Shown here piece by piece: positions 7,811-47,769 of a DNA stretch of 64,000 nucleotides (position 1 is the stretch's first letter; the number at the start of each line of letters is the position of its first letter). Source of the DNA: Bradyrhizobium elkanii USDA 76 (GTDB lineage Bacteria > Pseudomonadota > Alphaproteobacteria > Rhizobiales > Xanthobacteraceae); assembly GCF_023278185.1 (NCBI RefSeq), contig NZ_CP066356.1, forward strand, positions 1,852,001 to 1,916,000, in the 5' to 3' direction. Position numbers and translations under genes: made by a program. Below the pieces are notes generated by a model. The model was not told where the DNA came from. It searched no databases and was given only the letters and a program-made list of their open reading frames with translations.

Positions 7811-7891
7811 GGCTGTGCTCCTTGGCTTTGCAGGCGGGAGCGCTCTCGGTCTCTCAGCCACCGACGCCTACGAGCAGAGCCTTGGCCGGTG
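7811..7891 (-). promoter_or_regulatory. Repeated SD-masking leader, copy 1
   Basis: Minus-strand leader with the conserved core GGTGGCTGAGAGACC and the segment GCTCCCGCCTGCA, followed by AAGGAGC and the ATG. GCUCC can pair with GGAGC, hiding the ribosome site behind a 14-nt loop. A second stem, UCGGU/ACCGA, holds GGCUGAGAG in its loop. Confidence 0.65.
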
Positions 7892-7946
7892 ATAACTCAT
7901 CAACGGCGCTGGAGCGATTTGCTCAATAGTGAACATAAGCTGGCGC

Positions 7947-8140
7947 CTAATCGGCGTCGGGCTCTTCTTTGTGCCTCGCCACAGCTTCATTAACTTTGTG
8001 GCGGTCGAGCCGATCTTCGGGGGAGAGCATCGAGACAGGGCGCCAGATGCTAACGTTGATCTCCAAGTTTGAATTACGTGGCTCCGTGGCCCACTCCCAC
8101 CCATCGATCAAATGCGTCTTTGGTCCACGACTCCGGCGAT
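7947..8140 (-). pseudogene. Small conserved protein remnant
   Basis: The frame ending at 7947 reads WATEPRNSNLEINVSIWRP, SMLSPEDRLDRHKVNEAV and ARHKEEPDAD. The N-terminal part (SWTKDAFDRW) lies in another frame, so a one-base shift near 8110 is likely. No start codon with a ribosome site. Family not named. Confidence 0.4.
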
Positions 8141-8207
8141 ATTTGCCGGGTGTTCTTGATCTTCCCCTGCCTGGATATGGTTCGGGCCGGCGCTGCCTAG
8201 CGCCGGT

Positions 8208-8954
8208 TCACCCGGCTGCCATTATGATCGCGCGCGGACTTGGGACTTTTAGCGCATGGAGATAATCGGCGCTGAACTCGGCCACCGTTTCAAGCTCCTC
8301 GCGCCGAAGCACGTAGGCGATTTGTCCGCGCCAATCGAGCAATCCCATCTTTCTCAGTTCCTGAACTGTGCGATTGACATGGACGGTTGAGAGGCCACAG
8401 GCATCCGCAAGGTCTTGCTGCGTTAAAGGAAGACGGAAGGTGTCGTTGTCGAGCAAACCCACCATCTCAAAACGGGTGGCAAGCTCGCAGAACAGATGCG
8501 CGACTCTTGGCAGCGCCGCCCTTGAGCCCAGGTTTTCGACCCATTCTCGGTAGATCGCTGCATGGATAAGGGTCTCTCGCCAAAATGCGTTTGTCAGCCC
8601 CGGAGATTCCTTCAACATCCGCCGGAGATGCGAATGGGATATGAAGGCCACAGTCGAGGTCCCCTCGCTGCAGAGATCGTGATCCAAAACGGGCAGATGC
8701 AGCGTATGGAGATCAGGTACGTCCCCCGGTACGTAGATGGACGATATTTGATTGCGTTCGGAAACAACCCTTCGACGCGACAGCATTCCAGTCATCACGA
8801 CGGCACAATGCACGGGCACGTCGCCTTGCCGTGCGACGCGGTCGCCGTCTCTAAATGTTTTGATGATGTGAGGCATCTGCTGGAGCCGGACCTTGTCTTG
8901 CTCGGACAGCTCAACGACGGACAGCAAACGCGCGATTAGCTTGACATGCGGCAT
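8208..8954 (-). CDS. Crp/Fnr-family transcriptional regulator
   Basis: 248 residues starting MPHVKLIARLLSVVELSEQD. N-terminal cyclic-nucleotide-binding fold (about 20-130) with IIKTFRDGDRVARQGDVP. C-terminal winged helix-turn-helix (about 165-235) with LPLTQQDLADACGLSTVHVN and RTVQELRKMGLLDWRG. There is no N-terminal cysteine cluster, so it is not an Fe-S FNR. The start at 8954 is chosen because GGGAGGGAG precedes it within leader copy 2. Transcription probably begins near 9040 from an EcfG-type promoter. Expected to bind DNA as a dimer; ligand unknown. Confidence 0.9.
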   Translation of the reverse strand: MPHVKLIARLLSVVELSEQDKVRLQQMPHIIKTFRDGDRVARQGDVPVHCAVVMTGMLSRRRVVSERNQISSIYVPGDVPDLHTLHLPVLDHDLCSEGTSTVAFISHSHLRRMLKESPGLTNAFWRETLIHAAIYREWVENLGSRAALPRVAHLFCELATRFEMVGLLDNDTFRLPLTQQDLADACGLSTVHVNRTVQELRKMGLLDWRGQIAYVLRREELETVAEFSADYLHALKVPSPRAIIMAAG

Positions 8955-9036
8955 CAGACACTCCCTCCCCTTTGCAGGCGGGAGCACGAGAGTGTCTCTC
9001 AGTCACCAGCGCCCACAGAAAAGGCCTTGGCCGATG
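8955..9036 (-). promoter_or_regulatory. Repeated SD-masking leader, copy 2 (before Crp/Fnr gene)
   Basis: Shares the blocks CGGCCAAGGC, ACTGAGAGAC and GCTCCCGCCTGCA with copies 1, 3 and 4, but the downstream gene is unrelated to theirs. CUCCC can pair with the GGGAG of the ribosome site. The 5' border coincides with the start predicted from the EcfG-type promoter at 9047-9071. Confidence 0.65.
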
Positions 9037-9046
9037 ATGCACAAGC

Positions 9047-9071
9047 AACGCGGGAAAGGGAACTAAGTTCC
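9047..9071 (-). promoter_or_regulatory. EcfG-type promoter (GGAAC-N16-CGTT)
   Basis: Minus strand GGAAC (9071-9067), 16 bp, CGTT (9050-9047). Exact match to the consensus I know for alphaproteobacterial EcfG sigma factors. Predicted start near 9040, directly at the conserved border of leader copy 2. Confidence 0.75.
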
Positions 9072-9310
9072 CGCGCTGACTGAACCATCAGGTGCGTGTT
9101 CGCCCTGCGAGAAAGTAGGATTTCTGGCTGTAACAAATCGATACAGAAAGTGCGCTCCCGCCGGGCGCGAGATTCACCTCGGTTATTTCGGGAACCCAAC
9201 TTTGCCAAGATCCTCAATGGCATGGGGCAGGTGATTTTCATTTCCTATTTTTACAGCCCTAAAATGACGACCGCTGCATCCTGGCGGACAGCGGTTCGGC
9301 AATCAGTCTA

Positions 9311-9345
9311 GGCCCCAGCCAGTCCCCTCGCTGGGGCCTTTTTTT
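9311..9345 (+). terminator. Rho-independent terminator-like hairpin
   Basis: GGCCCCAGC / GCTGGGGCC stem with a 10-nt loop, followed by seven T. Best formed member of a hairpin family repeated in the window. No coding gene on this strand clearly needs it, so a short RNA upstream is possible. Confidence 0.75.
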
Positions 9346-9405
9346 GGAACAGGGGGCGACAGGCGCGGTTCTAGTCTCGCTTTGATGAGGAGTGGAACGA
9401 CCCCT

Positions 9406-9443
9406 CGGCCTCAGTGCTCTTCCCGGGCACTGGGGCCGTTTTT
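9406..9443 (+). terminator. Repeated GGCC-stem hairpin
   Basis: GGCCTCAGTGC / GCACTGGGGCC with one mismatch, followed by GTTTTT. Second hairpin of a pair with the terminator at 9311; the spacer contains GAGGAGTGGAACGACC, similar to the pair at 44302-44443. Confidence 0.6.
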
Positions 9444-9454
9444 GCAGTTTGAGG

Positions 9455-9703
9455 TTAGCTCACTTTGTTGCGGCTGATCGCGAAGGAAAAGCGGACCGTC
9501 ATAACGGGGCCGGCGTCGTCCCGGACCTCGATCTCCATTTGCTCAGCGCCGCTACCGCTGAGGGTCGCTACGGCATCATGGGCCATGCCGCCTAAAGATC
9601 GCGCAGCCTCGTCCTGTGCCGCGTCCAGATCCCGAAGATCGAGGCCTTCCTCGTCAGGGGTTGTTCCGTTGCCATCCTTTAAATCGAAGTAATACCGAGG
9701 CAT
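9455..9703 (-). CDS. DUF6894-type small protein
   Basis: 82 residues starting MPRYYFDLKDGNGTTPDEEG and then LDLRDLDAAQDEAARSL. Matches a small, very common rhizobial family (P-R-Y/F-Y-F-D start, acidic DEEG turn, LDAAQDEAARSL helix, V-R-D-x-x-G strand). Function unknown. A paralogue that has lost its start codon lies at 47832-48083. Single gene, no operon partner on this strand. Confidence 0.7.
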   Translation of the reverse strand: MPRYYFDLKDGNGTTPDEEGLDLRDLDAAQDEAARSLGGMAHDAVATLSGSGAEQMEIEVRDDAGPVMTVRFSFAISRNKVS

Positions 9704-9925
9704 TGAGCGCGCCCATTCATTTCCTAACATTTCAAAGCGAAATTCGAGGGGCGTTCCTAGTGGCCCCGCTTTTTGAAATGCGGCGGCCTGTTTGGGGAGC
9801 ACAGGAACAGGTCCTCATTCGGCGGTTGGGTCATTGGCGGGTCGCGCTGCCCGCCGCGGTATTCGGACAACGACGGAAGCCGAGCTCCAGCGACGCCCCC
9901 GCGCTGGGGCTACTTCTCTAGGCCA

Positions 9926-9990
9926 TCACCCGAACGGGTCTTTGCCTGGCTGAAATATCCTCACGAACGTCCCGCTCTCGCCTGGATCGT
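9926..9990 (-). pseudogene. Fragment with TFVRxxQxGKDxF tail
   Basis: Minus strand reads ESGTFVRIFQPGKDPFG then stop. The same tail recurs near 44804-44875 (TFVRMLQSGKDLFV), 51268-51340 and 58030-58115, always broken or at a cassette end. A repeated gene fragment, not an expressed gene. Confidence 0.45.
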
Positions 9991-10125
9991 TTCTTCAGAA
10001 TTGCTCATTTCGAAATACCCATTATCAGGCAGCAACCAACGGACGAGAATAATCGAGAAGTCAACTTATACCTTTGGGCGCTTTTCTCGTTGCACTGCGC
10101 TAGTCTTTTGCCTCGGAGCAGGGGA

Positions 10126-10329
10126 ATGGCGAGCGAGCTAAAACAAGCGGAGTACCGGGCAGGCGGGGGCGCGCCAATGCTTAGCCGGCTGCGCCGTGTC
10201 GAAGAATGGCGCAGGGCGCGCTTCCGGCAGTTGCTGGATGGGCCGGACCGAGAATCGGCAATCAGAGCGGCGCGACTCTATCTGGAGGTTGGGGCGCGGC
10301 GCATGGCAGCTGAGCGGGGGCTTGTTTAG
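10126..10329 (+). CDS. Small hypothetical protein
   Basis: 67 residues starting MASELKQAEYRAGGGAPMLS with GGAGCAGGGGA upstream, so the start at 10126 is preferred. Strongly helical and basic (RVEEWRRARFRQLL, AIRAARLYLEVGARRMAAE). Converges with the next gene, overlapping it by a few bases at the 3' end. Unknown function. Confidence 0.55.
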   Translation: MASELKQAEYRAGGGAPMLSRLRRVEEWRRARFRQLLDGPDRESAIRAARLYLEVGARRMAAERGLV

Positions 10330-10640
10330 CGAACCCTGGTAGGCTTGCTCATCTCCGCAAGCCCGCCAGCAGTAATGCGATAGCTGACCTTTCCGTCAGC
10401 TTCTCGAATCTCAATCCACTGATGGCGAAGTAAGGTCAGTTTCAACTTTGCCTGATCTGGCAGATCGACAGCGGGGACCCATTCACCGCCCCGAAGGTGC
10501 TCCAGAAATTGCCGATGGCGATGATTGAAGGAAGTGGCCAAGCCAAGCCCAAAGAGCAAAAATTGTTCAGAGTGGACGAATCCAGCAGTCCAGACATCAT
10601 GGGCATCGAAGGCCCGTCCGTCGTGATCCAAATGGATCAC
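10326..10640 (-). CDS. Hypothetical protein
   Basis: 104 residues from GTG at 10640 (VIHLDHDGRAFDAHDVW) to SKPTRVR. The frame is open further to 10721, so the start is uncertain. Middle: QFLLFGLGLATSFNHRHRQF; end: LTLLRHQWIEIREADGKVSY, which could be a winged-helix-like beta hairpin. No family recognised. Confidence 0.5.
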   Translation of the reverse strand: MIHLDHDGRAFDAHDVWTAGFVHSEQFLLFGLGLATSFNHRHRQFLEHLRGGEWVPAVDLPDQAKLKLTLLRHQWIEIREADGKVSYRITAGGLAEMSKPTRVR

Positions 10641-10759
10641 TGACTTATCCCGCGCGAGGCCGACCCGTGAAATACAGCGACAGAACGCTCCCGACGCGAT
10701 AGAGTGAGTTGTTGAACACAACCGAATGCGTCAAGTGGCTCGATATTGGGAGATCGTTC

Positions 10760-11179
10760 ATGAGATTCTTTTTCCTCGGTATCGCAATGGTCGGAATCGT
10801 AGTCGGGACACAAGCAAAGGCAGGCGCGAGCCGAGACTATGAAGTTGACTACTACGCGGAGCGACAGCTTCGGACGCAGGTTGGAACGTTCTACAAGCCA
10901 TGCGGTACCGGCGCCGCCACAATGAACGGGCAGCGAACGCACTACTTCAAGAAGTCGCAATCATCATGTCTGGTCACTGGGGGACATCCGCCGCCAGCGA
11001 CAATAAGCTGCGAGTTCACCCAAGCGGGTTGCACAGACGCTCTCGCACATGCGTTTCCGCTCATCCCTCACGCACCCGGCTTCAGCCTGAGCATGGGTGC
11101 TGCACCCGCGTTGTTCCAAGCTAGCGCCGCTGACCAGGAGCTTTATAAGCGAAACAAGCGCGATTCCGGCGTGAAGTAA
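10760..11179 (+). CDS. Exported hypothetical protein
   Basis: 139 residues starting MRFFFLGIAMVGIVVGTQAKA, a clear signal peptide with a likely cut after AKA. GGGAG lies 8 nt upstream of the start. The mature part has four or five cysteines (KPCGTG, SSCLV, ISCEF, AGCTD), consistent with a disulfide-bonded periplasmic protein. No family recognised. Flanked by unrelated small genes. Confidence 0.55.
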   Translation: MRFFFLGIAMVGIVVGTQAKAGASRDYEVDYYAERQLRTQVGTFYKPCGTGAATMNGQRTHYFKKSQSSCLVTGGHPPPATISCEFTQAGCTDALAHAFPLIPHAPGFSLSMGAAPALFQASAADQELYKRNKRDSGVK

Positions 11180-11202
11180 ATCGGATTGTAGCTTTACGCG
11201 AC

Positions 11203-11480
11203 TTAGGTGGCCTCCGGATTAGCCGCATTTGGGGGCGCCGCCTTTGCCGCGGCCAGTTCATTCGCCTTGTTAGCGCTGAGCGCTTTGATTTCCGCCAGCC
11301 GCATTTCTCACTTATGCTTCTCGACGTACCATTCATCAAAAAGCATCTCGATCAAGTCAATCAACATCTGAACCTCGCCGGGCTCGATGTCGACGATTAG
11401 ATTCACGTCCTTTTCCATGTGGGCGCCAATATTGCCAAAGCTGCGAACCGCGTCGATCGCTCTCGCGCGTTACGCCCTTT
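11203..11480 (-). pseudogene. DUF4145-like C-terminal fragment
   Basis: Reads ARAIDAVRSFGNIGAHMEKD, VNLIVDIEPGEVQMLIDLI and FDEWYVEKHK, then an in-frame TGA, then EMRLAEIKALSANKAN to a stop at 11203. The AIDAVRxFGNIGAH segment resembles the C-terminal helices of DUF4145 proteins. An upstream in-frame TAA shows the N-terminal part is gone. Confidence 0.55.
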
Positions 11481-11533
11481 GGAGCCGTATGATCGTCTAG
11501 CTGTTTTCGTCGATTAACGGCGGAATCTGCCTC

Positions 11534-12982
11534 CTAGAATTTCAAAGTCGTGCGCAGGCCGAAGACTGTTGCGTTCTTGAGCGCTCGGCCCGGGATCGGC
11601 CCCGCCGGGTCCGTTGCTCCGCCCCCGGGATGAATGATGTATTGGAAATTTGGCTGCAGGGTCCAGCCGTCCCGTAACTGATATTGATACACCGCCGTCA
11701 ACAGTCCTTCGAAGCTGCGCACCGGCCATGTCGGACCAAAGAGTACGCGATAGTCGACGTCCAGTGCCTGAGCCCGCTTCGAGACGTGGGCGTAGCCAGC
11801 AGCGATGCCGAATTTGTCGTCTGGTCGTTTGTCGCTGAGGCCGATGAACTCCAGTCCGGCGTCGGCGTAGAGATCAATCAGATTGCGGTCCGCGGGAGCG
11901 CCGGAGATGCGAGCGAAAACGCCGATTCCCCGATCATCGCTTTTGGGCACGCGATAAATCTGCTGCTCGAAGACCGCCCATCCGCCGACATCGCCTGCCA
12001 ACATCAGGGGAGTGCCGCTGCTGGCCGGCGCCGCAAGCGAAACGCCGTTGCTGGCGAGTTGAAGATCGGAGAATGGCCCGAGGTGACGCCACCCGCCGAA
12101 CTTGATCTGGCCCGTCAGATTGGGATCGCCCTTCGTGTTGTTCCAGGAGTACTGGATTTGGCCCAGCAGAAGGGGCGGATCGTTAATCCGGAAGTTGACG
12201 CCATATCGGTTGCGTTGTTGTGGATCGCCTGGGCCCGGACCCGCCTGGTTGCCGTCGAAGACGCCGCCAAGAATGGATAGCTGATCCGTGGCGTTGACCA
12301 GCAGCCGGGTGCCCATTGCCGCCAACGGCGGCGACGGACCGCCGCTGGGCAGGTCGAGAGATGTGATTGCCGGCCACCCCATCGATGCGTTGGTGAAGAC
12401 ATCTGTATATTTCGTGTTGAAGAACTCGCTATCGGCGGCGAGCTGCCCGAACTTCAGGGAGACCTTTTTGTTACCCCACTGCTTCTCGAAGTAGGCTTCG
12501 TAAAGTCGCGTCGACGGCAATGCCTCGATGCCGCTGACGACGAAGAGATTGTCGAGATAGTTGCGCGACAGTCCCGCACCGTGAATCTGGAACATGTTGG
12601 CGTGGAAGGTAAGCTTGTCGATGCCGGCGAGCTTCTGCAGGTCGACATCGACGGCAAGGTTCAGCCGGCCTTCGTAGATCGCTCCCTGCTTCAGCCCGCC
12701 GGAGACATTTCCGAGCGTCTCGCCGATGTAGGTCGCGGCGAACTTGATCCCGTATTTTTGAAACGGGTTCGGCAGAAGTCCAAGCGTCTTCTCCTCGATG
12801 GTGCTCTCGCCGGTGTCCGGATCGGCAGGCTTGTCTTCGTCGGTCTTCTTGTCTTCCTGCGCGAAAGCGTGGGTGCCGGCGAGAAGCCCCGCAACAAGGA
12901 CCGCCAGCGTCAGGCATCTAACGACCATGTTCAATCGAACCGCATAGCGAGGAGTCCGCAAGACAGAGGCACATTGGGACAC
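11534..12982 (-). CDS. OprB-type carbohydrate-selective porin
   Basis: 482 residues. A signal peptide ends about VAGLLAGTHAFAQ, so MVVRCLTLAVLV at 12928 is an alternative start. An acidic linker (KKTDEDKPADPDTGES) precedes the OprB domain: GIKFAATYIGETLGNVSGG, then alternating beta strands such as KLTFHANMFQIHGAGLSR and AYFEKQWGNKKVSLKFGQL, ending in the outer-membrane phenylalanine (RTTLKF). Family role: 16-strand outer-membrane channel for sugars. Monocistronic. No terminator seen. Confidence 0.9.
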   Translation of the reverse strand: MSQCASVLRTPRYAVRLNMVVRCLTLAVLVAGLLAGTHAFAQEDKKTDEDKPADPDTGESTIEEKTLGLLPNPFQKYGIKFAATYIGETLGNVSGGLKQGAIYEGRLNLAVDVDLQKLAGIDKLTFHANMFQIHGAGLSRNYLDNLFVVSGIEALPSTRLYEAYFEKQWGNKKVSLKFGQLAADSEFFNTKYTDVFTNASMGWPAITSLDLPSGGPSPPLAAMGTRLLVNATDQLSILGGVFDGNQAGPGPGDPQQRNRYGVNFRINDPPLLLGQIQYSWNNTKGDPNLTGQIKFGGWRHLGPFSDLQLASNGVSLAAPASSGTPLMLAGDVGGWAVFEQQIYRVPKSDDRGIGVFARISGAPADRNLIDLYADAGLEFIGLSDKRPDDKFGIAAGYAHVSKRAQALDVDYRVLFGPTWPVRSFEGLLTAVYQYQLRDGWTLQPNFQYIIHPGGGATDPAGPIPGRALKNATVFGLRTTLKF

Positions 12983-13087
12983 GGTCGAATAGCAAACTCA
13001 AGAGCGCGCGCGCTGGCTGGTTCCGTCCAGGTGATTTTCCAAGCCCGTGATTTTTGCGGCAGCGCAACGGCAACCCCGGGAACAATC

Positions 13088-13853: not shown

Positions 13854-13856
13854 ATC

Positions 13857-27420: not shown

Positions 27421-27550
27421 GGCTTCCACGCGCGCTTGTCGAAGCGCATTTGAAAGTCACGGGTGACGTCCTGGCGCGGCTCCTGACCACCAAAGCGGCG
27501 GTGATCGCACGATGGTATTCCCGCGACCAATCATCGAGCAGGAGGTCGAA

Positions 27551-28597
27551 ATGCCGCCGCGTGGCGTCCGTATGGAGGCGATGGAGGCACGTTCTGTCGA
27601 TGCCATTCCAGTCGGAAAGGAGTGGCAATATGAACCCAAATGGGACGGATTTCGTTGCCTGCTGGCGCGGGACCGGGACGCGGTGTCCATGCGCTCGAAG
27701 TCCGGCCAGGATCTCGCCCGATACTTCCCGGAGATCGTCGCCGCAGCCCGCGATTTGCGCGAACGGAGGTTTGTGCTTGACGGCGAGCTCGTCGTCGAGG
27801 TTGGCGGGCAATTTTCGTTCGATGACCTCCTGCAGCGCATCCATCCGGCCGCTAGCCGCGTCCAGAAGCTGTCCCGGGACACGCCGGCCCTGTTTCTCGC
27901 TTTCGATCTGCTGGAGCTGGGCGACAAAAAGTTGGCCGACCAACCGTTGTCCCGACGGCGACCTCAGTTGGAAAAGCTTGCTGGCCGCAATTTTTCGCGC
28001 GCGCCGCTATTTCGGCTATCGCCGGCCAGCACGAAGTTCGGGGATGCCGAGCGGTGGCTGCAATCGGCAGGCGGCGGAAGTGACGGCGTGGTCGCCAAGC
28101 GGCTCGATCTTCCGTACCAGACCGGGAAGCGCGAGGGCGTGCAGAAGATCAAGCGATATCGCAGCGCTGATTGCGTCATTGGAGGCTTTCGCTACGGCGA
28201 GAAGCTGCAGGCCGGCCGCAAAGCTGTCGCCTCATTGCTGCTGGGGCTTTACGATGCAGACGGCCTCCTGCACCACGTCGGCTTTTCGTCAGCCATCAAG
28301 GCAAAGGACAAACCGGCGCTGACCGAAAGACTCGAGATGATTGCGGCGACCAAAAGCTTCACTGGCAACGCGCCAGGCGGACCAAGCCGATGGTCGACGA
28401 GACGATCGTCCGAATGGCAGGCGGTGAAGCCGAAATACGTTGTCGAAGTGTCCTACGATCACTTCACCGGTGGCCGCTTTCGGCACGGTACGACCATCCT
28501 TAGATGGAGGTCCGACAAGAAGGCGGACCAGTGCACCATGGAACAGATGAAGCAAAAGATCGCGCGGGACCTCATGAGGGCGATCGAGCCAGCCTGA
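27551..28597 (+). CDS. ATP-dependent DNA ligase (LigC-type)
   Basis: 348 residues from MPPRGVRMEAMEARSVDAIP with AGGAGGTCG upstream. Adenylation motif I is EPKWDGFR (Lys is the AMP acceptor), followed by VLDGELVV (motif III-like) and SDGVVAKR (motif IV-like). The OB-fold part starts near CVIGGFRYGEK. No polymerase or nuclease domain, so it is a stand-alone repair ligase of the LigC/LigD-ligase-domain family. Family role: sealing breaks in stationary-phase repair, often with Ku, which is not in this window. It stands near uvrA2. Confidence 0.9.
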   Translation: MPPRGVRMEAMEARSVDAIPVGKEWQYEPKWDGFRCLLARDRDAVSMRSKSGQDLARYFPEIVAAARDLRERRFVLDGELVVEVGGQFSFDDLLQRIHPAASRVQKLSRDTPALFLAFDLLELGDKKLADQPLSRRRPQLEKLAGRNFSRAPLFRLSPASTKFGDAERWLQSAGGGSDGVVAKRLDLPYQTGKREGVQKIKRYRSADCVIGGFRYGEKLQAGRKAVASLLLGLYDADGLLHHVGFSSAIKAKDKPALTERLEMIAATKSFTGNAPGGPSRWSTRRSSEWQAVKPKYVVEVSYDHFTGGRFRHGTTILRWRSDKKADQCTMEQMKQKIARDLMRAIEPA

Positions 28598-36068: not shown

Positions 36069-36308
36069 TCACCGCTTCAGCAGTCCAGGGTTTTCCTTGT
36101 AGAACTTGATAAGCTCGATCAGGTTCTCGATTCCGAAGTCGGTGAACGCCTGGACGCCGTCTTCTCCGACGCCATAGACCCAGATCACGCCATGCTCGAT
36201 CTCCATTTCGATGGCGATGTCCCACAGCCAATCTTCGTCTTCGCCGAGGTCCTTGGCGACCTGGGCAATGGTGGTGACGTGATGGACTTTGTTGACGTGG
36301 GTGGTCAT
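36069..36308 (-). CDS. IS66 passenger protein, unknown
   Basis: 79 residues starting [20 protein letters not shown]; the ATG overlaps the tnpC stop (ATGA). Acidic and helical: [20 protein letters not shown] then [16 protein letters not shown] and [17 protein letters not shown]. Inside the element borders, so it moves with the IS. Similar small downstream genes occur in some IS66 elements; the role is unknown. Confidence 0.7.
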
Positions 36309-37957
36309 GCCGCTGCTCGAGCGGAGAGCGCTGATGCCGGTGTCCAATTCCAGGGCAGCAGTTCGTCCAGCCGGTGAGCCGGGTGGGCAGCAATGCGAGC
36401 GAGAACATCCGCCAGCCAGGCTTGCGGGTCGATGCCGTTCATCTTGGCGGTGATGATCAGGCTGTACATGGCCGCCGCACGCCGTCCGCCGCGATCAGAG
36501 CCGCAGAACAACCAGGACTTTCGCCCCAGAGCGATACCTCTTAGGCCTCGTTCGGCGGCATTGTTGGACAGACATACCCGCCCATCATCGAGGAACAGGG
36601 TGAAGCTCGCCCAGCGCTTCAGGATATAGTTGAACGCCTTAGTCAGGTCGTGCCCACGGGAGAGTTTGGCGAGCTGTTCTCTCATGTAGACTTGAAGATC
36701 GTCGACCAGGGGCCGGCTCTGCGTCTGCCGTACCTGAAGGCGATCCTCGGGACTCCTGCCATTGATGGAGCGCTCGATCTCGAACAGCGCGTCGATCCGC
36801 CTCACGACCTCGATCGCGATCGGCGAGAGCGGGATCTCCTTCTTGCCGGCGGCCTTGCGCCGGGCATTCTCTTCGATGTCGGCCATGGCAAAGAACGGGC
36901 GCCGTCCGTGCGACCAGCAGGCAGCCTCCCGGATTGGGCCTGGCTGGCGTCCCGCTAGATAGAGCTGGTTGTACCCATCATAGGCATCGGCCTGCAGGAT
37001 GCCGGCATATCGGGCCAGATGCCCCCGGGGATGCTCGCCCTTGCGGTCGCGGGAGTAATAGAACATCGCCGCCGGCGGCCCCGCGCCGCCAAACGGCCGG
37101 TCGTCCCGGACGTAGATCCAGCATCGCGCCGTATCGGTCTTGCCTTTGGCCAGTACGGGCACGGTCGTATCATCGGCATGCAGGCGCTCGGCCGCCATGA
37201 CATGGGCTTCGACCAAGCGCAGGAGGGGATCCAGCGACGCACAGACCGATCCCATGGCGTCCGCCATGGTCGACAGCGCGATCGGCACGCCTTCCAGGAC
37301 GTAGCGCTCCGCCTGGCGGTTTAAGGGCTGATGTTGGCCGAACTTCTCGAACATGATCATGGCCAACAGACTCGGGCCGGCCCATCCGCGGGCGACGGCA
37401 TGGAACGGCGCCGCCGTCTGGCTGATCTTCTCGCAGTCGCGGCAGGAGAACTTCTCCCGGACCGTCTCGATCACCTTCCACTGGCGCGGTACCACTTCCA
37501 GCGTCCGAGTTACGTCCTCGCCGAGCTTGCGCAGGCGAGTGCCCCCACAACAATCGCAAGCCGTTGGCCCATCGATCACCACCCGCTCCCGGGGAAGATT
37601 TTCGGGGAACGTCTGGCGCTCGGCGCGCTTGCGCGTAAATCCGCGCACCGCCGTCGCCTTGGCCACGGCCCGTTCCGCCGCAAGCTCGTCCTCGGTGGCG
37701 TCGGCTTCCAGCTCTTCGAACGTCAGCGCCAGCTGTTCGATCAGCCGCGCCGAACGCTCCGATCGTTGCCCATAGATCTGATGCTTCAGCTTGGCGATCT
37801 GCAGCTTCTGCTGGGCAATCAGCGCCTCGTCTTCCGACGCTTTCGCGCGGGCGACCGCGAGCTCGGCGGCGATCTCAAACCCCTTCGCGCGCTCGGCCGC
37901 CAACGCCTCTTTCAGGGCGGCAACGTCATCCGGAGCAGCGTCGCGATCAGCATTCAT
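36305..37957 (-). CDS. tnpC: IS66 transposase TnpC
   Basis: 550 residues starting [20 protein letters not shown]. An N-terminal coiled coil leads to the leucine-rich IYGQRSERS segment, a zinc-binding part ([17 protein letters not shown] and CRDCEKI), then the DDE core: [29 protein letters not shown] and the late glutamate in [21 protein letters not shown]-terminal IS66_[16 protein letters not shown]. Full length and uninterrupted, so probably active. Confidence 0.95.
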
Positions 37958-42416: not shown

Positions 42417-42524
42417 ATGTTCAGTTTCGGTCGCATGGATGGTGTTGAATACGGCTTTCTCAGCTTTGCTGGAATGTCGTTTGTGGCGCTCATCGTCAGC
42501 GTAAGTTGGCTGCTGATCGGCTGA
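42417..42524 (+). CDS. 35-residue single-span membrane peptide
   Basis: MFSFGRMDGVEYGFLSFAGM then SFVALIVSVSWLLIG. One helix after a polar N-terminus. A frameshifted relative (MDRVEWG, SFAAMSFVALVVFSS) lies at 47131-47230. Lies between two repeated hairpins. Confidence 0.55.
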   Translation: MFSFGRMDGVEYGFLSFAGMSFVALIVSVSWLLIG

Positions 42525-42556
42525 GCGTCCTACCTCTCGTGATGACATGACGACTT

Positions 42557-42592
42557 GGCCTCAGCGTGTAACCCCTTCGCTGGCCGTTTCTT
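42557..42592 (+). terminator. Repeated GGCC-stem hairpin
   Basis: GGCCTCAGCG / CGCTGGCC (imperfect) followed by GTTTCTTT, 33 bp after the membrane-peptide stop. Overlaps the 3' end of the small gene on the other strand. Confidence 0.5.
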
Positions 42593-42752
42593 TAGTGCCC
42601 TTCGTGTCTACATTTTGAGGACCAGGGCGGATATCGGACTTCATCATCTCCAGTTCGATTGGCTTCAGTTTAGCACTCAATCGCCGCAACCTGGCTCGCG
42701 CCCGCTTGGCTGGGGTATCAAGTCGCTCGCCCACGGTCCGTTTCTTCGCCAT
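42561..42752 (-). CDS. Small basic protein, MAKKRTxGERL family, copy 1
   Basis: 63 residues starting MAKKRTVGERLDTPAKRARA, Lys/Arg-rich. A second copy (MAKKRTAGERLNTPAKR) lies at 47344-47508. In both places the ATG overlaps the C-terminal codons of a PPPDTFLGRKT family gene, so the two form a repeated two-gene module. Unknown function; possible nucleic-acid binding from charge. Confidence 0.6.
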   Translation of the reverse strand: MAKKRTVGERLDTPAKRARARLRRLSAKLKPIELEMMKSDIRPGPQNVDTKGTKETASEGVTR

Positions 42753-42930
42753 ACCTGCTTTCCTCTTGCGGGAAAGGCTCGTGCGTCTTTGCGGCCGATG
42801 AACGTATCCGGCGGCGGATTGTCTTTGAGCAGCCGGGCAGCTTCGGCCGAGACCTGGAGGGCCGCATCAACGATGTGCCCGTCCTGCCGTTGATCGCTGC
42901 AATGCGATTGATGACGCGCTGATCGGCCAT
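42736..42930 (-). pseudogene. PPPDTFLGRKT family, copy 2, frameshifted
   Basis: MADQRVINRIAAINGRTG, then after a shift DAALQVSAEAARLLKDNPPP and DTFIGRK, then after a second shift THEPFPQEESRYGEE. The second shift is an extra A in the GRK codons. Near-identical to the intact copy at 47426-47686. Preceded by leader copy 3. Confidence 0.7.
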
Positions 42931-43012
42931 AGCCGCGCTCCCTCGCTCAATGCAGGCGGAAGCACTTGGTCTCTCAGCCACCGACGCCCACGGGCAGAGG
43001 CTTGGCCGGTGA
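42931..43012 (-). promoter_or_regulatory. Repeated SD-masking leader, copy 3
   Basis: Core GGTGGCTGAGAGACC, then GCTTCCGCCTGCA, then GAGGGAGC before the ATG. GCUUCC pairs with GGGAGC through one G-U pair: the single C-to-U change relative to other copies keeps the helix. Confidence 0.65.
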
Positions 43013-43194
43013 TGACGATATAATGTGCCAACTAACATAGGTTGCCAGGCGGCCGATCGATCCTCCTTGTCGAGGACGCATTCCGTTCTCAGCCTGGAAC
43101 AAAAAGCTTGTGTGCTGTTCTGGACAGAATTTCTGGAACAAAATGCCCATTTGCACGTCATGAATCCGTTGCGATAGGAGCAACGGGGAACGAC

Positions 43195-43383
43195 GTGCCG
43201 TCCGCAGAATATCACCTACGCCAAGCCGAACTTGCAGCCCGGCTTGCGCTCGCTGAAGCAGAACCATCCAAAGCCGCAGCTCTCCACGTTCTCGCACTAG
43301 AGCAGTACGATAAGGCCGCGAAGGCTGGGGCCAAGCCGGATCAGATGTCGCGAATACCGGCCCTGAGAGACCAGATGAGCTGA
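43195..43383 (+). CDS. Small helical hypothetical protein
   Basis: 62 residues from GTG (VPSAEYHLRQAELAARLALA). Helical and Ala-rich with AALHVLALEQYDKAAKAGAK, like one or two TPR-type helices. CAACGGGGAACG upstream is a moderate ribosome site. The next peptide gene follows 2 bp later. Confidence 0.55.
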   Translation: MPSAEYHLRQAELAARLALAEAEPSKAAALHVLALEQYDKAAKAGAKPDQMSRIPALRDQMS

Positions 43384-43385
43384 AT

Positions 43386-43526
43386 ATGGTTGACCTGGAT
43401 CAAGACAAGGCAATCGCATCTGATGAGTGTATCGGCATGGCCGATCGCGACGACTGGATTTCCATCGCCTGCTTGACCGCGATTGCGCTTACGACTGTTG
43501 CCGCGACTGCGGCCTTGTTCCTGTAG
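43386..43526 (+). CDS. 46-residue single-span membrane peptide
   Basis: MVDLDQDKAIASDECIGMAD, then RDDWISIACLTAIALTTVAA and TAALFL. An acidic N-terminus and a C-terminal helix. Starts 2 bp after the preceding stop, so probably translationally coupled. Confidence 0.5.
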   Translation: MVDLDQDKAIASDECIGMADRDDWISIACLTAIALTTVAATAALFL

Positions 43527-43615
43527 AACGCGGGGCCGCGCGGTGGCACAAATTGCACTAGCGGTCGCCCAGCATCGAGGAATAGGATTTCAACCCCAAA
43601 CGCAGGGGTTGTGTG

Positions 43616-43702
43616 ATGAGTAGTGACCTACCTTTTAGCGCGCTCATCGTGGCGCTCGGGCTGAGCCCCATCGCAATAGTGGCTATCGCCTTGTTCATGT
43701 AA
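43616..43702 (+). CDS. 28-residue single-span membrane peptide
   Basis: MSSDLPFSALIVALGLSPIA then IVAIALFM. A similar segment (FSALVVVLGLSPIVIV) ends the protein at 47344-47508 on the other strand. Followed directly by a perfect terminator. Confidence 0.6.
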   Translation: MSSDLPFSALIVALGLSPIAIVAIALFM

Positions 43703-43704
43703 AA

Positions 43705-43732
43705 AGAGGCCGCCTCAGTTGGCGGCCTCTTT
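43705..43732 (+). terminator. Terminator hairpin after membrane peptide
   Basis: AGAGGCCGCC / GGCGGCCTCT stem, loop TCAGTT, then TTAT. Same stem as at 14721. Confidence 0.8.
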
Positions 43733-43971
43733 ATCCTGGCAGCTTGCCTTCCCATTCGGATCGAGCCCGTCGCGATTCGGTGCCATGGAACACCCGCAGC
43801 CGCGAATTCGAACACTTGTGGAGTATCCACGAGGGTAGCTTTCGTTGCTACTTTATCCCATTACGGTGCATTGCGCTGTGGGGGCGCAGAGAACGGCCCC
43901 AGTTCACTGGCCCTGCTAGCCCCAAGATGGTGCCGGGGTCGTTCCCTTGCTGCGATGCGGAACGAGATGGA

Positions 43972-44190
43972 ATGAGCGCGAATAGATTTAAGAGTTGGAC
44001 TGAAACCGAAGAACGTTTGCTGGTTGCGCTGCATGAGTCAGGGATGGATCACCGCCTCATAGCGATCCAGATGCGCAGGACGGAAGCCGGGATCGATAAC
44101 CGACTCGCGGTGATCACCAAAAGGGCTAGACGGGCGGAGAGCGTCAGCCCGGCGTCGCTCGATAGTCCATCGCCGGCCGTTCGCGGATGA
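43972..44190 (+). CDS. Small SANT/Myb-like protein
   Basis: 72 residues starting MSANRFKSWTETEERLLVAL. The pattern W-T-x-x-E-x-x-L-L-x-A-L-H-x-x-G-x-D-x-x-x-I-A-x-x-M-x-R-T-x-x-G-I-x-x-R-L matches a SANT/Myb-like DNA-binding helix-turn-helix. A basic tail follows. Likely a small DNA-binding protein; target unknown. Confidence 0.6.
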   Translation: MSANRFKSWTETEERLLVALHESGMDHRLIAIQMRRTEAGIDNRLAVITKRARRAESVSPASLDSPSPAVRG

Positions 44191-44301
44191 CGGCAGGGTG
44201 CGATACGCTCTGCGACGTGTCGTCGGCTAGGAACGAACGTTTCTCCACGGGGCCCGATTGAGCACAAGTCTTGGTGCTTCAATGTCGGTAGCACCCGACA
44301 C

Positions 44302-44338
44302 GGCCTCGGTGCTCTCCTCGTGCTGGGGCCGTTTCTTT
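44302..44338 (+). terminator. Repeated GGCC-stem hairpin
   Basis: GGCCTCGGTGC / GTGCTGGGGCC then GTTTCTTTT. First of a tandem pair with 44404; the spacer has GGGAACAAGTGGCAATTC and GAGGAGTGGGACGACC. Confidence 0.6.
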
Positions 44339-44403
44339 TCGGGAACAAGTGGCAATTCTTGACGTTGCAAACGTCGGTCGGGTTGAGGAGTGGGACGACC
44401 ATC

Positions 44404-44443
44404 GGCCTCAGCGTTCTCCCCGGGGCGCTGGGGCCGGTTTTTC
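44404..44443 (+). terminator. Repeated GGCC-stem hairpin
   Basis: GGCCTCAGCGTTC / GGCGCTGGGGCC with GGTTTTT. Twelve bp upstream of the membrane-peptide gene at 44455, so it lies in that gene's possible leader. Confidence 0.6.
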
Positions 44444-44454
44444 CGAGGTGCAGT

Positions 44455-44541
44455 ATGACGGACGAACGTCGGGATTGGACCCTGATCATCGGATTTCTAA
44501 GCATCGCGGTCGCAGTGTTGATAATCGACCTTGCCTTCTAG
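44455..44541 (+). CDS. 28-residue single-span membrane peptide
   Basis: MTDERRDWTLIIGFLSIAVA then VLIIDLAF. A charged N-terminus and one helix; GAGGTG upstream. Confidence 0.6.
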   Translation: MTDERRDWTLIIGFLSIAVAVLIIDLAF

Positions 44542-44580
44542 GCCGTCCTCGTTGAGCAAGGAAGAGCATGCTCTCCGACC

Positions 44581-44764
44581 TCAATGCGTGATTTTGAGAT
44601 GGCTGGCCACCCGATCCTCGTTGTTCGCCAGCAGCTCATAATCATCTGCCAGCTTGAGATAGGCTCGACGTATTCCGTCGTCCATCGCGTACGACGACAG
44701 TGTGCGATACTCTTCTGCTATGCGTCGGTGTCTGGCCGCCTCAGCGGCGTAATCGTCAATTCAT
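44581..44764 (-). pseudogene. Small conserved protein, start region damaged
   Basis: The frame ending at 44581 reads HRRIAEEYRTLSSYAMDDGI, then RRAYLKLADDYELLANNEDR and VASHLKITH. It looks like an intact, conserved helical protein, but the only upstream ATG (44764) is in another frame, and a stop precedes the reading frame. A one-base shift after the start is likely. GAGGGG lies upstream of that ATG. Confidence 0.5.
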
Positions 44765-44803
44765 GGGAGGGGCCCCTGAGGTGACCCTACCAAATCGTGC
44801 CGG

Positions 44804-44889
44804 CTAGACGAACAGGTCTTTGCCCGACTGCAGCATCCTCACGAACGTCCCGCTTTCGTGGTACTCGAGCCAGCAAGCCAGCCCAATAC
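44804..44889 (-). pseudogene. Fragment with TFVRMLQSGKDLF tail
   Basis: ARVPRKRDV in one frame; WLEYHESGTFVRMLQSGKDL in another. Terminal piece of the cassette that includes 44890-45504. Relatives at 9926, 51268 and 58030. Confidence 0.5.
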
Positions 44890-45504
44890 TCAGCCGACGT
44901 CGCCTTGTCCTGGTAGATCATCGGATAGTTGATCCTTTCGATATAGATCCGGCCGATCTCGGATCGGCTCAAAGGCGCGGGCATGTTCCATGATCCGGCG
45001 CGCGGCTTCCTCCGGGTCCGCCCAGCGACGGTCTTCCTTCATTTTCATCGTCGAATTCCGTCGCGCCTTTGCGCAGCGTAGATGGTGAGGGGTGTGAATC
45101 TGGCTTTCGGCCGGACGGTGGCTATCAAACGTCGCGCCACAGGGACAGCGCATCAGCGACGACGGTTGTTGAGACGGCAGCTTTTCGCCGCGATCCCACA
45201 TGGCCTGCTTGCGTGCGATCCAGTCGCGATGATCGCGCCATGCCTGGAAGTCCGCCTCGGTCAGGGTCGGCAGCAACGCACCCCATGCCGCTTCGAACCC
45301 CGCGCGCCGGTCGTCGAACGTCGCGGCCGGTCCGCCGGTCGACCGGTCAGATCCGGGATAGAAGCCGCATTTCCATTCCCATTGGTCCGCGTGGTTCGGC
45401 ACGCCCTTGCGCAGCCCGATCGAACCAACGACGACGTCGCGATAAAGGATGCTCCATTTCTCGCGGGCAGCTTCCTTGTCGCGCCGGCGTGTGAGCTTGG
45501 TCAC
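44890..45504 (-). CDS. Hypothetical protein with CPCG motif, read-through fusion of two cassette genes
   Basis: 204 residues from GTG (VTKLTRRRDKEAAREKWSIL), overlapping the preceding stop by 4 bp. Middle: GFYPGSDRSTGGPAATFDDR, TLTEADFQAWRDHRDWIARK, then MRCPCGATFDSHRP with a late HTPHHLRC. From MKMKEDRRWADPEEAARRIM the frame enters what looks like a separate gene (compare 51268-51530). A piece of the first part recurs at 53323-53600 in a different frame at this junction, so the fusion is probably the result of a one-base shift. Function unknown. Confidence 0.6.
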   Translation of the reverse strand: MTKLTRRRDKEAAREKWSILYRDVVVGSIGLRKGVPNHADQWEWKCGFYPGSDRSTGGPAATFDDRRAGFEAAWGALLPTLTEADFQAWRDHRDWIARKQAMWDRGEKLPSQQPSSLMRCPCGATFDSHRPAESQIHTPHHLRCAKARRNSTMKMKEDRRWADPEEAARRIMEHARAFEPIRDRPDLYRKDQLSDDLPGQGDVG

Positions 45505-45921
45505 GTCGCGTCTCCGATCGGGCAGCGCTGCCACAGTTGCAGCAGCTCCGCGGCCGGCCGCTTGCCAGTCGCGCTGCACTTCACGCAGCGCAGGCGGTCG
45601 GCGAGATCGTGCACCCTGGTGGTCGGAACGTGGCGCAGGGCAGCCCAGGTCAACCGCGCGCGGCGTCTTGCACCGCGAGCATTTGATCTCAAGCCACGGA
45701 TAGCCGGCATTGATAGCCTGGTCGATCGAGTGCTCCACCATCATCACCAGCACCACCTGCCGATTTGCGCTCGACCTGAGTGCTGGACCTGCATATTCCC
45801 GTCGAGCCATTTCGGTGAGGGCGCTCCGCTGTTCACGGAGGAAGGCACGTTCGAATCGTGCGGCGGGAGCCAATTTCAATCGAGCAGTGCGCGTCGCAGA
45901 GTCGAGGAGCGCCAGCGTCAT
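45501..45921 (-). pseudogene. Four-cysteine zinc-binding protein, frameshifted
   Basis: MTLALLDSATRTARLKLAPA to GYPWLEIKCSRCKTPRAVDL in one frame, then AALRHVPTTRVHDLADRLRC and VKCSATGKRPAAELLQLWQ after an extra G near 45655. The CxxC...CxxC layout and W/YLEVxC start match the intact relative at 49135-49548. The gene overlaps the following one (GTGA). Confidence 0.65.
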
Positions 45922-45979
45922 CAATCAGTGTCTGGCAATCCCGAGATTCACTTAGTGTATTGGCCCTTAGATGGCGGCG

Positions 45980-47029
45980 TCACCGATCGTCGCGCGCGAG
46001 CACGACCTTCACTTCGCAGCCGTTCGGGAGCGGGCTGCGGGATACCGAACCCTTCATTTGGGCCGCGAGAAGCTTGATCAGCCGGCTACCCATCCCAGTT
46101 TTTGCCTCCGAGGGGCAGCCTACCCCGTCGTCCTTGACGACGATGCTGAGCCTGCGTTCGTCGGCCTTGACATCGACGTCGATGGCGCCAGCCCGCTCGT
46201 TCGGGAAGGCATATTTGAAGGCGTTGGTAACCAGTTCGTTCACAATCAGCCCGATATTGGCCGCTTGCACGCTGGCCAGGGAGATCTCGTCGCAGCGCAC
46301 GCGAACGGCGATCGGCCGCACGCCGCGCTGCAGGTCGCCGAGGCTTCCGCAGAGCGTTTCGATGTAGGGCCCGAGCCGGATCTTGCCGTCGCCGCCCATG
46401 CTGTGCAGCCTATCGTGGACCTTGGCGATGACCTCGACGCGCCCGATGGCGGCATGGAGGGCGGCCTGCACCTCCGGATTGACGTCGGCCCGCGCCTGCA
46501 GCCGCAACATGGACACGATGGTGGTGAGATCGTTCTTGGTCCTGTGCACCAGCTCCTGCAGCAACACGTCGGAATAGACCTTGGCTTTGGCCAAGCTCTC
46601 TGTGGTGGAGCGCAGAGCTTCGGTGATCCCTGCTAAGCCGAAGCCGGTCAATATGAATACGATCAGTGGTGGCGCCGCCGCAGCGGCGGACCGCGGCAGG
46701 AAGAACACGGACGCGAGCACCGCGCTCGCGATCGTGGCGAGAAAGCCGCTCCCTCGGTCAAACAATACGGATGCGAGAAACACGGCGGGTACGAAAAAGA
46801 GGAGAGGATAGGCCCCCAAGGGCTCCGGCGCCAAAAGTCGCCCCAGGCATGCGCCTCCCACCAGGGTGAGCGATAGCACGTAGCGCAGCCAGATCGGATA
46901 GCTTGGCATCATGTGAAGGAGCTTGAAGACGAACCAATCCATCTTGGGCAACAGCTGCTCCCGGCTAGCTGTTCCTGCATCGAATTCCATGAGGCCAGCG
47001 TTGCGCGTGATGACGTTGGCGTTAAACAC
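45980..47029 (-). CDS. Sensor histidine kinase, HisKA_2/HWE type, with DUF4118 membrane domain
   Basis: 349 residues from GTG at 47029 (ATG at 46990 possible). Four membrane segments at about 45-135 (LRYVLSLTLVGGACLGRLL, YPLLFFVPAVFLASVLF and two more) form a DUF4118/KdpD-like sensor. Kinase: LLQELVHRTKNDLTTIVSML carries the phospho-His; the ATPase follows with NELVTNAFKYAF (N box) and DDGVGCP (G box). HisKA_2/HWE kinases in Alphaproteobacteria commonly feed the PhyR-EcfG stress pathway, so this could be the sensor for the promoters seen here; that link is inference. No partner regulator adjacent. Confidence 0.88.
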   Translation of the reverse strand: MFNANVITRNAGLMEFDAGTASREQLLPKMDWFVFKLLHMMPSYPIWLRYVLSLTLVGGACLGRLLAPEPLGAYPLLFFVPAVFLASVLFDRGSGFLATIASAVLASVFFLPRSAAAAAPPLIVFILTGFGLAGITEALRSTTESLAKAKVYSDVLLQELVHRTKNDLTTIVSMLRLQARADVNPEVQAALHAAIGRVEVIAKVHDRLHSMGGDGKIRLGPYIETLCGSLGDLQRGVRPIAVRVRCDEISLASVQAANIGLIVNELVTNAFKYAFPNERAGAIDVDVKADERRLSIVVKDDGVGCPSEAKTGMGSRLIKLLAAQMKGSVSRSPLPNGCEVKVVLARDDR

Positions 47030-47130
47030 TCGCAGCCCGCCAAGAATTAGGACAGGCTGCTTGACTTGCCTATGCGCATGCGTCGACAGCTCGCCCGGCC
47101 CATCCTACGAGCACGCTTCAGTCTCACCAT

Positions 47131-47277
47131 ATGGACAGAGTAGAATGGGGGCTACTAGCTTTGCTGCCATGTCATTCGTGGCCCTCGTGGTCTTCTCCTC
47201 GAATAAGCCGGTCCTTCAGGGGATGACGTCGACTCGACCTAAGCGGGAAACCCCCTCGCTGGAGCCGTTTCGTTGGG
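47131..47277 (+). pseudogene. Frameshifted membrane peptide with degenerate hairpin
   Basis: MDRVEWG, then after a shift SFAAMSFVALVVFSSNKP, parallels the peptide at 42417. It is followed by a decayed copy of the repeated hairpin (CGACCTAAGCG ... CGCTGGAGCCGTTTCG). Confidence 0.45.
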
Positions 47278-47343
47278 GCAGCTATCAAGGGGCTTATGGC
47301 TCAAAAGAAAGAGGCCGCTAAGGAGGTGGCCTCCGTCTTCACA

Positions 47344-47508
47344 TCAATAGGGCGATAGCACTATCACGATGGGGCTCAGCCCGAGCACCACGACGAGCGC
47401 ACTAAACCGCCAGGCCGAGGCGGCCTTACGGCCTTTCTCTCTTATCTCGCTGTTTTGCCGCTTCGCTGGGGTATTCAGTCGTTCGCCCGCGGTCCGTTTC
47501 TTCGCCAT
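47344..47508 (-). CDS. Small basic protein, MAKKRTxGERL family, copy 2, with membrane tail
   Basis: 54 residues starting MAKKRTAGERLNTPAKRQNS. The basic N-terminus matches copy 1 at 42561, but the C-terminal half is AWRFSALVVVLGLSPIVIVL, like the membrane peptide at 43616. Probably a recombination product. The start lies in the coding end of the upstream family gene. Confidence 0.5.
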   Translation of the reverse strand: MAKKRTAGERLNTPAKRQNSEIREKGRKAASAWRFSALVVVLGLSPIVIVLSPY

Positions 47509-47686
47509 ACCTGCTTTCCCCTTGCGGGAAAGGCTCGTGCGTCTTGCGGCCGATGAACGCATCCGGCGGCGGATTGTCTTTGAGCGACCGGACAGATTCA
47601 GCCGAGATCCGGAGGGTCTCATCAATGATGCGCCGGTCTCGCCGCTGGTCGCCGTAAATGAGATTGATGACGCGCTGATCGGCCAT
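47426..47686 (-). CDS. Small protein of the PPPDTFLGRKT family, copy 3
   Basis: 86 residues starting MADQRVINLIYGDQRRDRRI, then RISAESVRSLKDNPPPDAF and IGRKTHEPFPQGESRYGEE. AAGGGAGC lies 6 nt upstream, within leader copy 4. Intact, unlike its near-twin at 42736. The C-terminal part overlaps the start of the MAKKRT gene at 47508. Unknown function. Confidence 0.65.
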   Translation of the reverse strand: MADQRVINLIYGDQRRDRRIIDETLRISAESVRSLKDNPPPDAFIGRKTHEPFPQGESRYGEETDRGRTTEYPSEAAKQRDKRERP

Positions 47687-47769
47687 GGCCGCGCTCCCTT
47701 GCTCAATGCAGGCGGGAGCACACTCGGTCTCTCAGCCACCGGCGGCCACGGCAGAGCCTCGGCCGGCGA
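47687..47769 (-). promoter_or_regulatory. Repeated SD-masking leader, copy 4
   Basis: Core GGTGGCTGAGAGACC, then GCTCCCGCCTGCA, a 15-nt loop and GGGAGC: a perfect 6-bp GCUCCC/GGGAGC helix over the ribosome site. CGGU/ACCG forms the upstream stem. Confidence 0.7.

Follow-up and report, generated by a model that had tools for sequence, protein, structure and literature searches.

A repeated two-hairpin leader, predicted to mask the ribosome site, precedes many small genes in Bradyrhizobium elkanii and other Alphaproteobacteria

SAM-II and preQ1-II are pseudoknotted translational riboswitches, in which a long-range loop pairing locks up the Shine-Dalgarno (SD) sequence. GEMM riboswitches, which respond to c-di-GMP, are found in many copies before unrelated genes in one genome, and ROSE thermometers are known from Bradyrhizobium. 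Here we describe a short RNA leader that occurs five times in a stretch of 64,000 nucleotides (nt) of the Bradyrhizobium elkanii USDA 76 genome (contig NZ_CP066356.1, positions 1,852,001 to 1,916,000, forward strand). This stretch is called the window, and positions of its features are counted from its first base. Comparison of homologous copies shows two predicted hairpins, P1 and P2, the second of which would pair the SD sequence of the following gene. With helices that appear to be kept by compensatory change and a fixed position before the start codon, the element has the marks of a structured cis-regulatory leader. A first-pass annotation, made from the letters of the DNA, had proposed a single helix over the SD sequence. 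That helix, P2, is supported, but it is only half of the structure, as the upstream hairpin P1 had been overlooked.

From 5' to 3' the element consists of AU, the 5' strand of P1, a variable loop, the 3' strand of P1, one base, the linker CUGAGAG, a variable spacer, P2 and the start codon. P1 has the consensus AUCACCGGC/GYCGGUG, and its loop, 11 to 38 nt long, ends in RGGC in 164 of 217 distinct elements. P2 reads GYGCUCCC/GGGAGCRC, with the SD sequence as its 3' strand; its loop starts with GCC in 204 of the 217. The linker between the hairpins is exact in 172 of these elements, and each of its columns carries 2 to 10 substitutions, compared with 23 to 48 in columns of the variable loop and spacer. 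These conserved bases may be unpaired and are a candidate pocket.

Two-sided changes in the helices were counted in three sets, and in each they exceed what is seen after shuffling. In the genus alignment (A4, 100 sources picked for diversity) they occupy 30 cells against 8.7 in shuffled versions, above all 500 shuffles. In the family and order alignment (A5) there are 144 such cells against 48.2, while no more than 36 remain when the partner strand is slid by 1 to 3 columns. The third set holds 33 matches outside all model alignments, found and aligned with a covariance model built from A5 (R3; mostly other genomes, few own-genome copies). Of these, 25 belong to genomes that share the class but not the order, and 8 to the own genome. 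In this set 79 two-sided cells are seen, against 23.8 shuffled and at most 19 when slid. Two truncated rows were left out before counting. The first-pass annotation had named a lack of covariation among more homologues as an argument against its proposal; covariation is strong in the genus, family/order and third sets. The eight own-genome copies alone, from which our first covariance model (R1) was built, show no two-sided change and no excess over shuffles.

In A5, all seven pairs of P1 show two-sided changes and 96.3% of the cells can pair. A tree-aware test of our own design puts five of these P1 pairs at p<=0.002 and the remaining two at 0.018 and 0.038; among 93 shifted control pairs none is below 0.01 and two are below 0.05. 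In the same test four of the eight P2 pairs have p-values of 0.012-0.044. At one P2 pair, C-G is exchanged for U-A (65/12 in A4 and 37/18 in A5, with 17 and 35 unpaired cells there). A first null model, with substitutions placed by column rate, left no pair below E=0.03; it was judged too conservative because changes pile up on few columns, and was therefore replaced by the pair-specific test. Its top five in the A5 run were three P1 pairs, the neighbouring-column pair k5-k6, and k3-q4, a pair between the two loops. In the combined A4 and A5 run k3-q4 was only 16th, behind several linker-linker pairs.

Masking of the SD sequence, also claimed by the first-pass annotation, is supported by computed folds. 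At 37 C, 184 of 211 elements leave their five SD bases less exposed than upstream-shuffled versions do, with a median unpaired value of 0.137 against 0.339; the 211 are what remains of 219 distinct elements once the 8 that do not end in a start codon are removed. Folded by itself at 37 C, the P2 hairpin of each of the five window copies has a computed energy between -9.4 and -18.4 kcal/mol. Folding of the whole element across temperatures was non-monotonic and not used; it was replaced by the run on P2 of these five copies.

The two loops probably kiss, through pairing of RGGC at the end of the P1 loop with GCCU at the start of the P2 loop, a contact that is included in none of the models. Among 42 loop-end and loop-start column pairs only k3-q4 and k4-q3 are below 0.05, and these are antiparallel neighbours as predicted. 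The p-values are 0.005 (400 simulations) and 0.001 (1000) for k3-q4, and 0.035 and 0.044 for k4-q3. Further, 73 of the 106 distinct A5 elements could form a contact of four base pairs, where shuffled partners give 56.5, and 0 of 2000 shuffles are as high. Among 28 rows outside the models (the 33 of the third set minus 5 with no usable P2 or judged spurious), the longest pair run in any register is 3.86 against 3.27 shuffled, reached in 1 of 2000. In some of these rows the contact appears rewritten, as AAGC with GCUU and GAUGC with GCAUC.

The leader is repeated far beyond chance. Searched for in the own genome of 9.5 Mb, an exact gapped core pattern is found 7 times and its reversed control not once. 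With nhmmer there are 237 hits at E<1e-5 (233 loci plus the window; many loci overlap), and the hits kept at E<=1e-3 represent 182 distinct elements. A covariance model from 116 matches (R2) finds 25 matches in the own genome at E<=1 and 18 at E<1e-3, and R3 finds 24 and 17 at the same thresholds. A stretch of 130 kb (1769461-1899770 of the 9.1 Mb contig) that includes the window copies holds eight of the 25 R2 matches at E<=1, of which some are weak. At 2661591-2661644 (-) of the own genome, locus L295, a possible deletion form was noted, in which P1 is joined to CCTGTA, a possible remnant of the P2 loop, and to the SD sequence, as if linker and anti-SD strand had been deleted; it would be a natural always-ON form. 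Elements can also be paired, back to back on opposite strands and about 100-180 base pairs (bp) apart, often one ordinary and one divergent (L034, L046, L061, L178, L188, L336, L345, L371).

In the genus sample R1 matches 113 of 146 genomes (E<=0.01). R2 finds the leader in half of the family sample (148 of 296 genomes, from 31 of 47 genera) and in 48 of the 397 genomes of the order sample, spread over 18 of its 141 genera (E<=0.001 in both); the 48 genomes divide into 14 in the genus, 1 more in the family and 33 beyond. These three samples overlap. With R3, 18 of 385 genomes in the class sample match, 15 of them outside the order; several match only at E ~1e-4, near which about 0.4 false matches are expected over the whole sample. 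All 33 matching genomes of 398 in the phylum sample are of the same class or nearer (how the 398 divide between this class and others is not given). The large searches scored no more than 11 to 30 candidates in each genome, so that the numbers per genome are minimum values. The core-pattern matches listed, in at least 80 named stretches, are mostly from Bradyrhizobium, and R1 also matches Microvirga massiliensis, a Phenylobacterium bin and a Rhodospirillaceae strain. Seven pattern hits (L055, L058, L059, L076, L093, L098, L103), among them Prevotellaceae, Janthinobacterium, Nitrospira and Myxococcales bins, have no R1 match at E<=0.1; they are probably chance matches and were set aside.

All four minus-strand copies of the first-pass annotation are found again, with R1 borders within about 3 nt of those given before; their R1 scores (71 to 101 bits) are not independent, because these copies were used to build R1. 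Copy 1 is at 7808..7893 (-; 100.6 bits, E 3.7e-18) and runs from AUCACCGG to AUG. On the evidence of covariation its P1 is formed by CACCGGC (7885..7891) and GUCGGUG (7859..7865). The putative kissing strand AGGC (7866..7869) is at the 3' edge of the P1 loop, as suggested by loop-loop covariation in the wider alignment, and its partner GCCU (7832..7835) at the 5' edge of the P2 loop, as suggested by the loop-loop tests. The linker CUGAGAG is at 7851..7857. P2 would pair the anti-SD strand GCGCUCCC (7836..7843; covariation and P2 folding) with the SD sequence GGAGC (7817..7821; sequence and P2 folding). The other minus-strand leaders are copy 2 at 8952..9038 (71.2 bits, E 4.4e-12), copy 3 at 42928..43013 (96.8 bits, E 2.2e-17) and copy 4 at 47684..47770 (94.1 bits, E 8.2e-17). 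The strings reported as common to the four hold as a consensus but are not identical in all: copy 4 has CGGCCGAG, copy 2 GGTGACTGAGAGACA and copy 3 GCTTCCGCCTGCA. The SD pairings are as first given, with a G-U in copy 3.

A fifth, divergent copy on the plus strand had been overlooked. It lies at 4190..4276, reads AUCACCG...CGGUGAUGAG...GCGCUCCCGCC...AGGAGUGCGC and has a GUG start. R2 gives it 31.1 bits (E 4.8e-4 in the whole genome) and R3 27.8 bits (E 2.6e-4 over a set of loci), and in the R3 search of the own genome it is absent at E<=1. It is the weakest of the five window copies.

Upstream of the leader the promoter varies. Copy 2 is preceded by a putative EcfG-type promoter, GGAAC-N16-CGTT (9047..9071, -), with GGAAC at 9071-9067, a 16-nt spacer and CGTT at 9050-9047, which ends 8 nt before the leader. 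The first-pass annotation had proposed such a promoter, with transcription starting exactly at the 5' border of copy 2; the boxes match the EcfG consensus exactly. Exact EcfG boxes were not seen upstream of copies 1, 3 and 4. Where strict boxes are present they end 6 to 8 nt before the leader. Counted from the A of AUC, a phased pattern of about TTG(G/C)AAC (-35 to -29) followed by TATT(T/G)T (-12 to -7) is seen upstream of 144 non-redundant copies, obtained from 166 of the 182 elements with a clear AUC start. A TATnAT-type box is found in 23 of 108 copies against 7 in control windows, and in 23 of 109 against 14, with a peak 6 nt before the leader. A second promoter-like pair, roughly CTCGCTATT-N11-GGCGYA, was noted upstream of L249, L263, L298, L300, L370 and L383, which are from different genomes; by regular expression this type is counted in 3 of 108 copies against 0. 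The leader thus stays constant under differing types of promoter, and the RNA should begin with the first base of the element. That the RNA starts at the first base of P1 is well supported by these upstream patterns but not proven.

The genes behind the leader are mostly small. An open reading frame (ORF) of at least 30 amino acids begins at or near the element end in 214 of 226 aligned elements, with offset 0 in 207, a count that is helped by the model itself containing AUG. The median length of these 214 ORFs is 71 amino acids, and 186 have at most 100. In a genus-centred set, single linkage groups 163 ORFs into 17 clusters: one of 116, seven of 2 to 10 and nine singletons. The largest chains several small-protein types, of which a FLGRKTQEPFP-like one is the most frequent among those listed. 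The clusters of 2 to 10 include one of Crp/Fnr proteins, one Crp/Fnr-like and one DUF6894-like by eye, and a small membrane protein. We scanned 92 downstream proteins against Pfam (a hand-chosen 89 of 105 A5 ORFs, two window ORFs and one re-framed ORF). There are 16 with DUF6894, 6 with a cyclic-nucleotide-binding domain and 5 with a Crp-type helix-turn-helix, as well as 1 cytochrome c and a few zinc ribbons; at least 54 of the 92 have no Pfam match at E<=0.001. Because the downstream genes fall into many unrelated families, in the genus set as well as among the scanned proteins, hitch-hiking with one gene is ruled out, in agreement with what had been argued from the four copies.

In the window, copy 1 precedes an ORF of 63 amino acids (7619..7810, -; ...RKTHDPFPQEESQYG; no Pfam match). 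Copy 2 precedes a Crp/Fnr-type regulator of 248 amino acids, as first noted (8208..8954, -; HTH_Crp_2 E 1.8e-15, Crp 6.9e-08, cNMP_binding 2e-05). The ORF behind copy 4 has 86 amino acids (47426..47686, -; ...RKTHEPFPQGESRYG; no Pfam match). That behind copy 3 has 70 (42718..42930, -); it starts and ends like the copy-4 gene, while its middle is out of frame. The three small genes had been assigned to one family, which stands, but the copy-3 gene looks damaged and is probably decaying, because by eye it carries two offsetting frameshifts. Behind copy 5, 69 codons were read (4274..4480, +; VVIKRRNRTKHTKTFEERLAEEA...; no Pfam match), and by eye the product resembles ORFs behind elements elsewhere. 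About 400 bp downstream of the copy-4 small gene, on the same strand, lies a histidine kinase (45980-47029, -; HisKA_2, HWE_HK, weak DUF4118). HWE-type histidine kinases often feed the general stress response. The window also encodes an Hsp20 (573-1382, -), an ATP-dependent DNA ligase (27512-28594, +) and an IS66 transposase (36308-37957, -).

We lean towards reading the leader as a cis-acting, default-OFF translational switch at the 5' end of many mRNAs, opened by a signal at the linker and junction. AUCACC would be the start of the transcript, made in some copies from a promoter for a stress sigma factor. P1 would fold first, its loop would catch the GCC of the nascent P2 loop, and P2 would then close over the SD sequence. 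The docked fold would keep the SD shut and translation off by default. The signal, with a small molecule or ion as the likeliest candidate and an RNA-binding protein as the next, would recognise the CUGAGAG linker and the junction and loosen the fold so that ribosomes can start. One signal could in this way tune mostly small, stress-type genes at some 17 to 25 places in the own genome, on top of their own promoters.

Several observations weigh against parts of this picture. The A4, A5 and third-set alignments were fitted to P1 and P2, which favours both. Minimum free energy folds of copies 1-4 disagree, and their z-scores are weak (-1.57 to 0.23). In P2, neither the innermost, loop-side pair nor the outermost one covaries (p 0.95 and 0.31), two of the eight pairs have one invariant side, so that no covariation can be measured there, and the loop-side pair is unpaired in 45 of 107 A5 cells. 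For the loop contact, the 50 A5 rows that depart from RGGC/GCCU give a weak excess, 17 against 12.3 shuffled (76 of 2000). The 28 rows outside the models give 10 against 7.5 in the fixed register, which is not significant (194 of 2000), and in the genus set 95 of 113 against 93.8 (312 of 2000) reflects a test without power. An alternative role for this GGC of the P1 loop would be to close a further helix inside P1, possible in 94 of 113 genus elements and 46 of 106 in A5; in the genus this option would allow two mutually exclusive states. Strict GGAAC-N15-17-nGTT boxes precede only 8 of 108 and 12 of 109 copies (0 in control windows), and the downstream proteins read show no metabolic theme pointing to a ligand.

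What could open such a fold, and whether it opens at all, can be answered in several ways. A tentative extension of the switch reading is a new riboswitch class for a general stress signal (an alarmone, a nucleotide second messenger or an ion) that would use one kissing-hairpin fold to set the translation of a small-protein regulon across Alphaproteobacteria, adding a post-transcriptional layer to the EcfG general stress response. Possible as well, at odds that are clearly less than even, is a protein effector on the same fold: an RNA-binding protein, or else a modified ribosome factor, would attach to CUGAGAG and open or lock P2 with no small molecule. The highly conserved unpaired linker and the lack of a metabolic theme would suit such an effector, and Corbino et al. 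made a comparable proposal for the serC leader when tests for a ligand had failed (PMC1273637); against it, no candidate protein is known, and none was searched for. The near-invariant CUGAGAG and GCUCCCGCC in many mRNAs might also be the target of a trans-acting small RNA, pairing with the linker and/or the anti-SD strand and freeing the SD. This is rather unlikely, as simple antisense pairing needs neither P1 nor the loop contact to be conserved, yet both appear to be. Of the functions offered by the first-pass annotation, the metabolite switch and the small-RNA target stay among the candidates, while its thermosensor is disfavoured. Like ROSE and other thermometers the leader has a hairpin on the SD sequence, and some copies have stress-type promoters; heat would then melt P2. 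However, in computed folds of P2 alone from the five window copies the SD stays closed between 20 and 55 C, which makes a simple thermometer unlikely, and a melting helix does not need conserved unpaired bases.

Two further explanations do without switching. The leader begins at the predicted transcription start and is mostly followed by short ORFs (186 of 214 with at most 100 amino acids), as might be expected of a constitutive, cap-like 5' leader that protects or times the mRNA through stability or processing. We regard this as unlikely, for it leaves unexplained the 3' hairpin built on the SD sequence and the kept linker. The other is a repeated DNA element or a gene duplication carried with one gene family, for which one could cite the single small-protein family behind three of the four reported copies and the position of eight of the 25 own-genome matches within 130 kb. 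The unrelated downstream families, the dissimilar upstream sequences (144 of 166 remain at <70% identity) and the compensatory changes in the helices make it highly improbable. Two more candidates were rejected. The lengths of the P1 loop fall in all three classes modulo 3 (58, 83 and 76 of 217), so the element is not coding and not a leader peptide. P2 is followed by a start codon and not by a U run, which excludes a transcription terminator.

If the switch reading is right, one short RNA module stands before many unrelated, mostly unstudied small genes, and the regulon would be defined by its leader and not by its promoter. The shared leader then offers a handle on the functions of these genes. 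It would also be a candidate switch class, with a consensus and an alignment, in a group that includes nitrogen-fixing symbionts.

The leader looks uncatalogued. The whole window has 0 matches at the gathering threshold among the 4227 families of Rfam 15, and none lies on the element at E<=10 (7750-9200) or at E<=5 in five diverged loci, in line with the first impression that it is not a known class. The TPP riboswitch carries a CUGAGA motif. These letters are common to both, but the window has no TPP match with cmscan, and no thiamine genes were recognised among the downstream proteins read. Our literature searches found no description of the leader, and prior naming in a 2017 list of 224 candidate RNAs is possible; the available parts of PMC4842269, PMC2864571 and PMC1273637 do not mention it. 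Rhizobiales-1, from a 2010 list, is given there without an Rfam number, and its row in the available part of that source is tentatively taken as not cis-regulatory, its sequence not having been compared (PMC2864571).

With SAM-II and preQ1-II the leader would share an SD lock by loop pairing, while it has no Rfam match and no metabolic gene theme. Its multi-copy use is like that of GEMM, but it has no match at the gathering threshold, and fold and sequence differ. Closest in plan is the serC RNA element (RF00517) of Alphaproteobacteria, judging by architecture. Both have two hairpins and a putative transcription start directly before them, and a role in covering the ribosome site immediately ahead of the start codon has been proposed for the last serC hairpin, as P2 would have here (PMC1273637). 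The leader is not a serC member: the RF00517 model hits the own genome at 1670418 and, below the cut-off, at 354747, neither of them at a leader copy. The former, at 1670418-1670469 (+) with E 1.1e-13, is the serC leader of this genome. No serC or serA was recognised among the downstream ORFs, the 92 scanned included. The last serC hairpin has a GNRA tetraloop, whereas the loops of the new leader appear to kiss and CUGAGAG is kept. Finally, the serC element precedes one operon, while the leader described here precedes many gene types.

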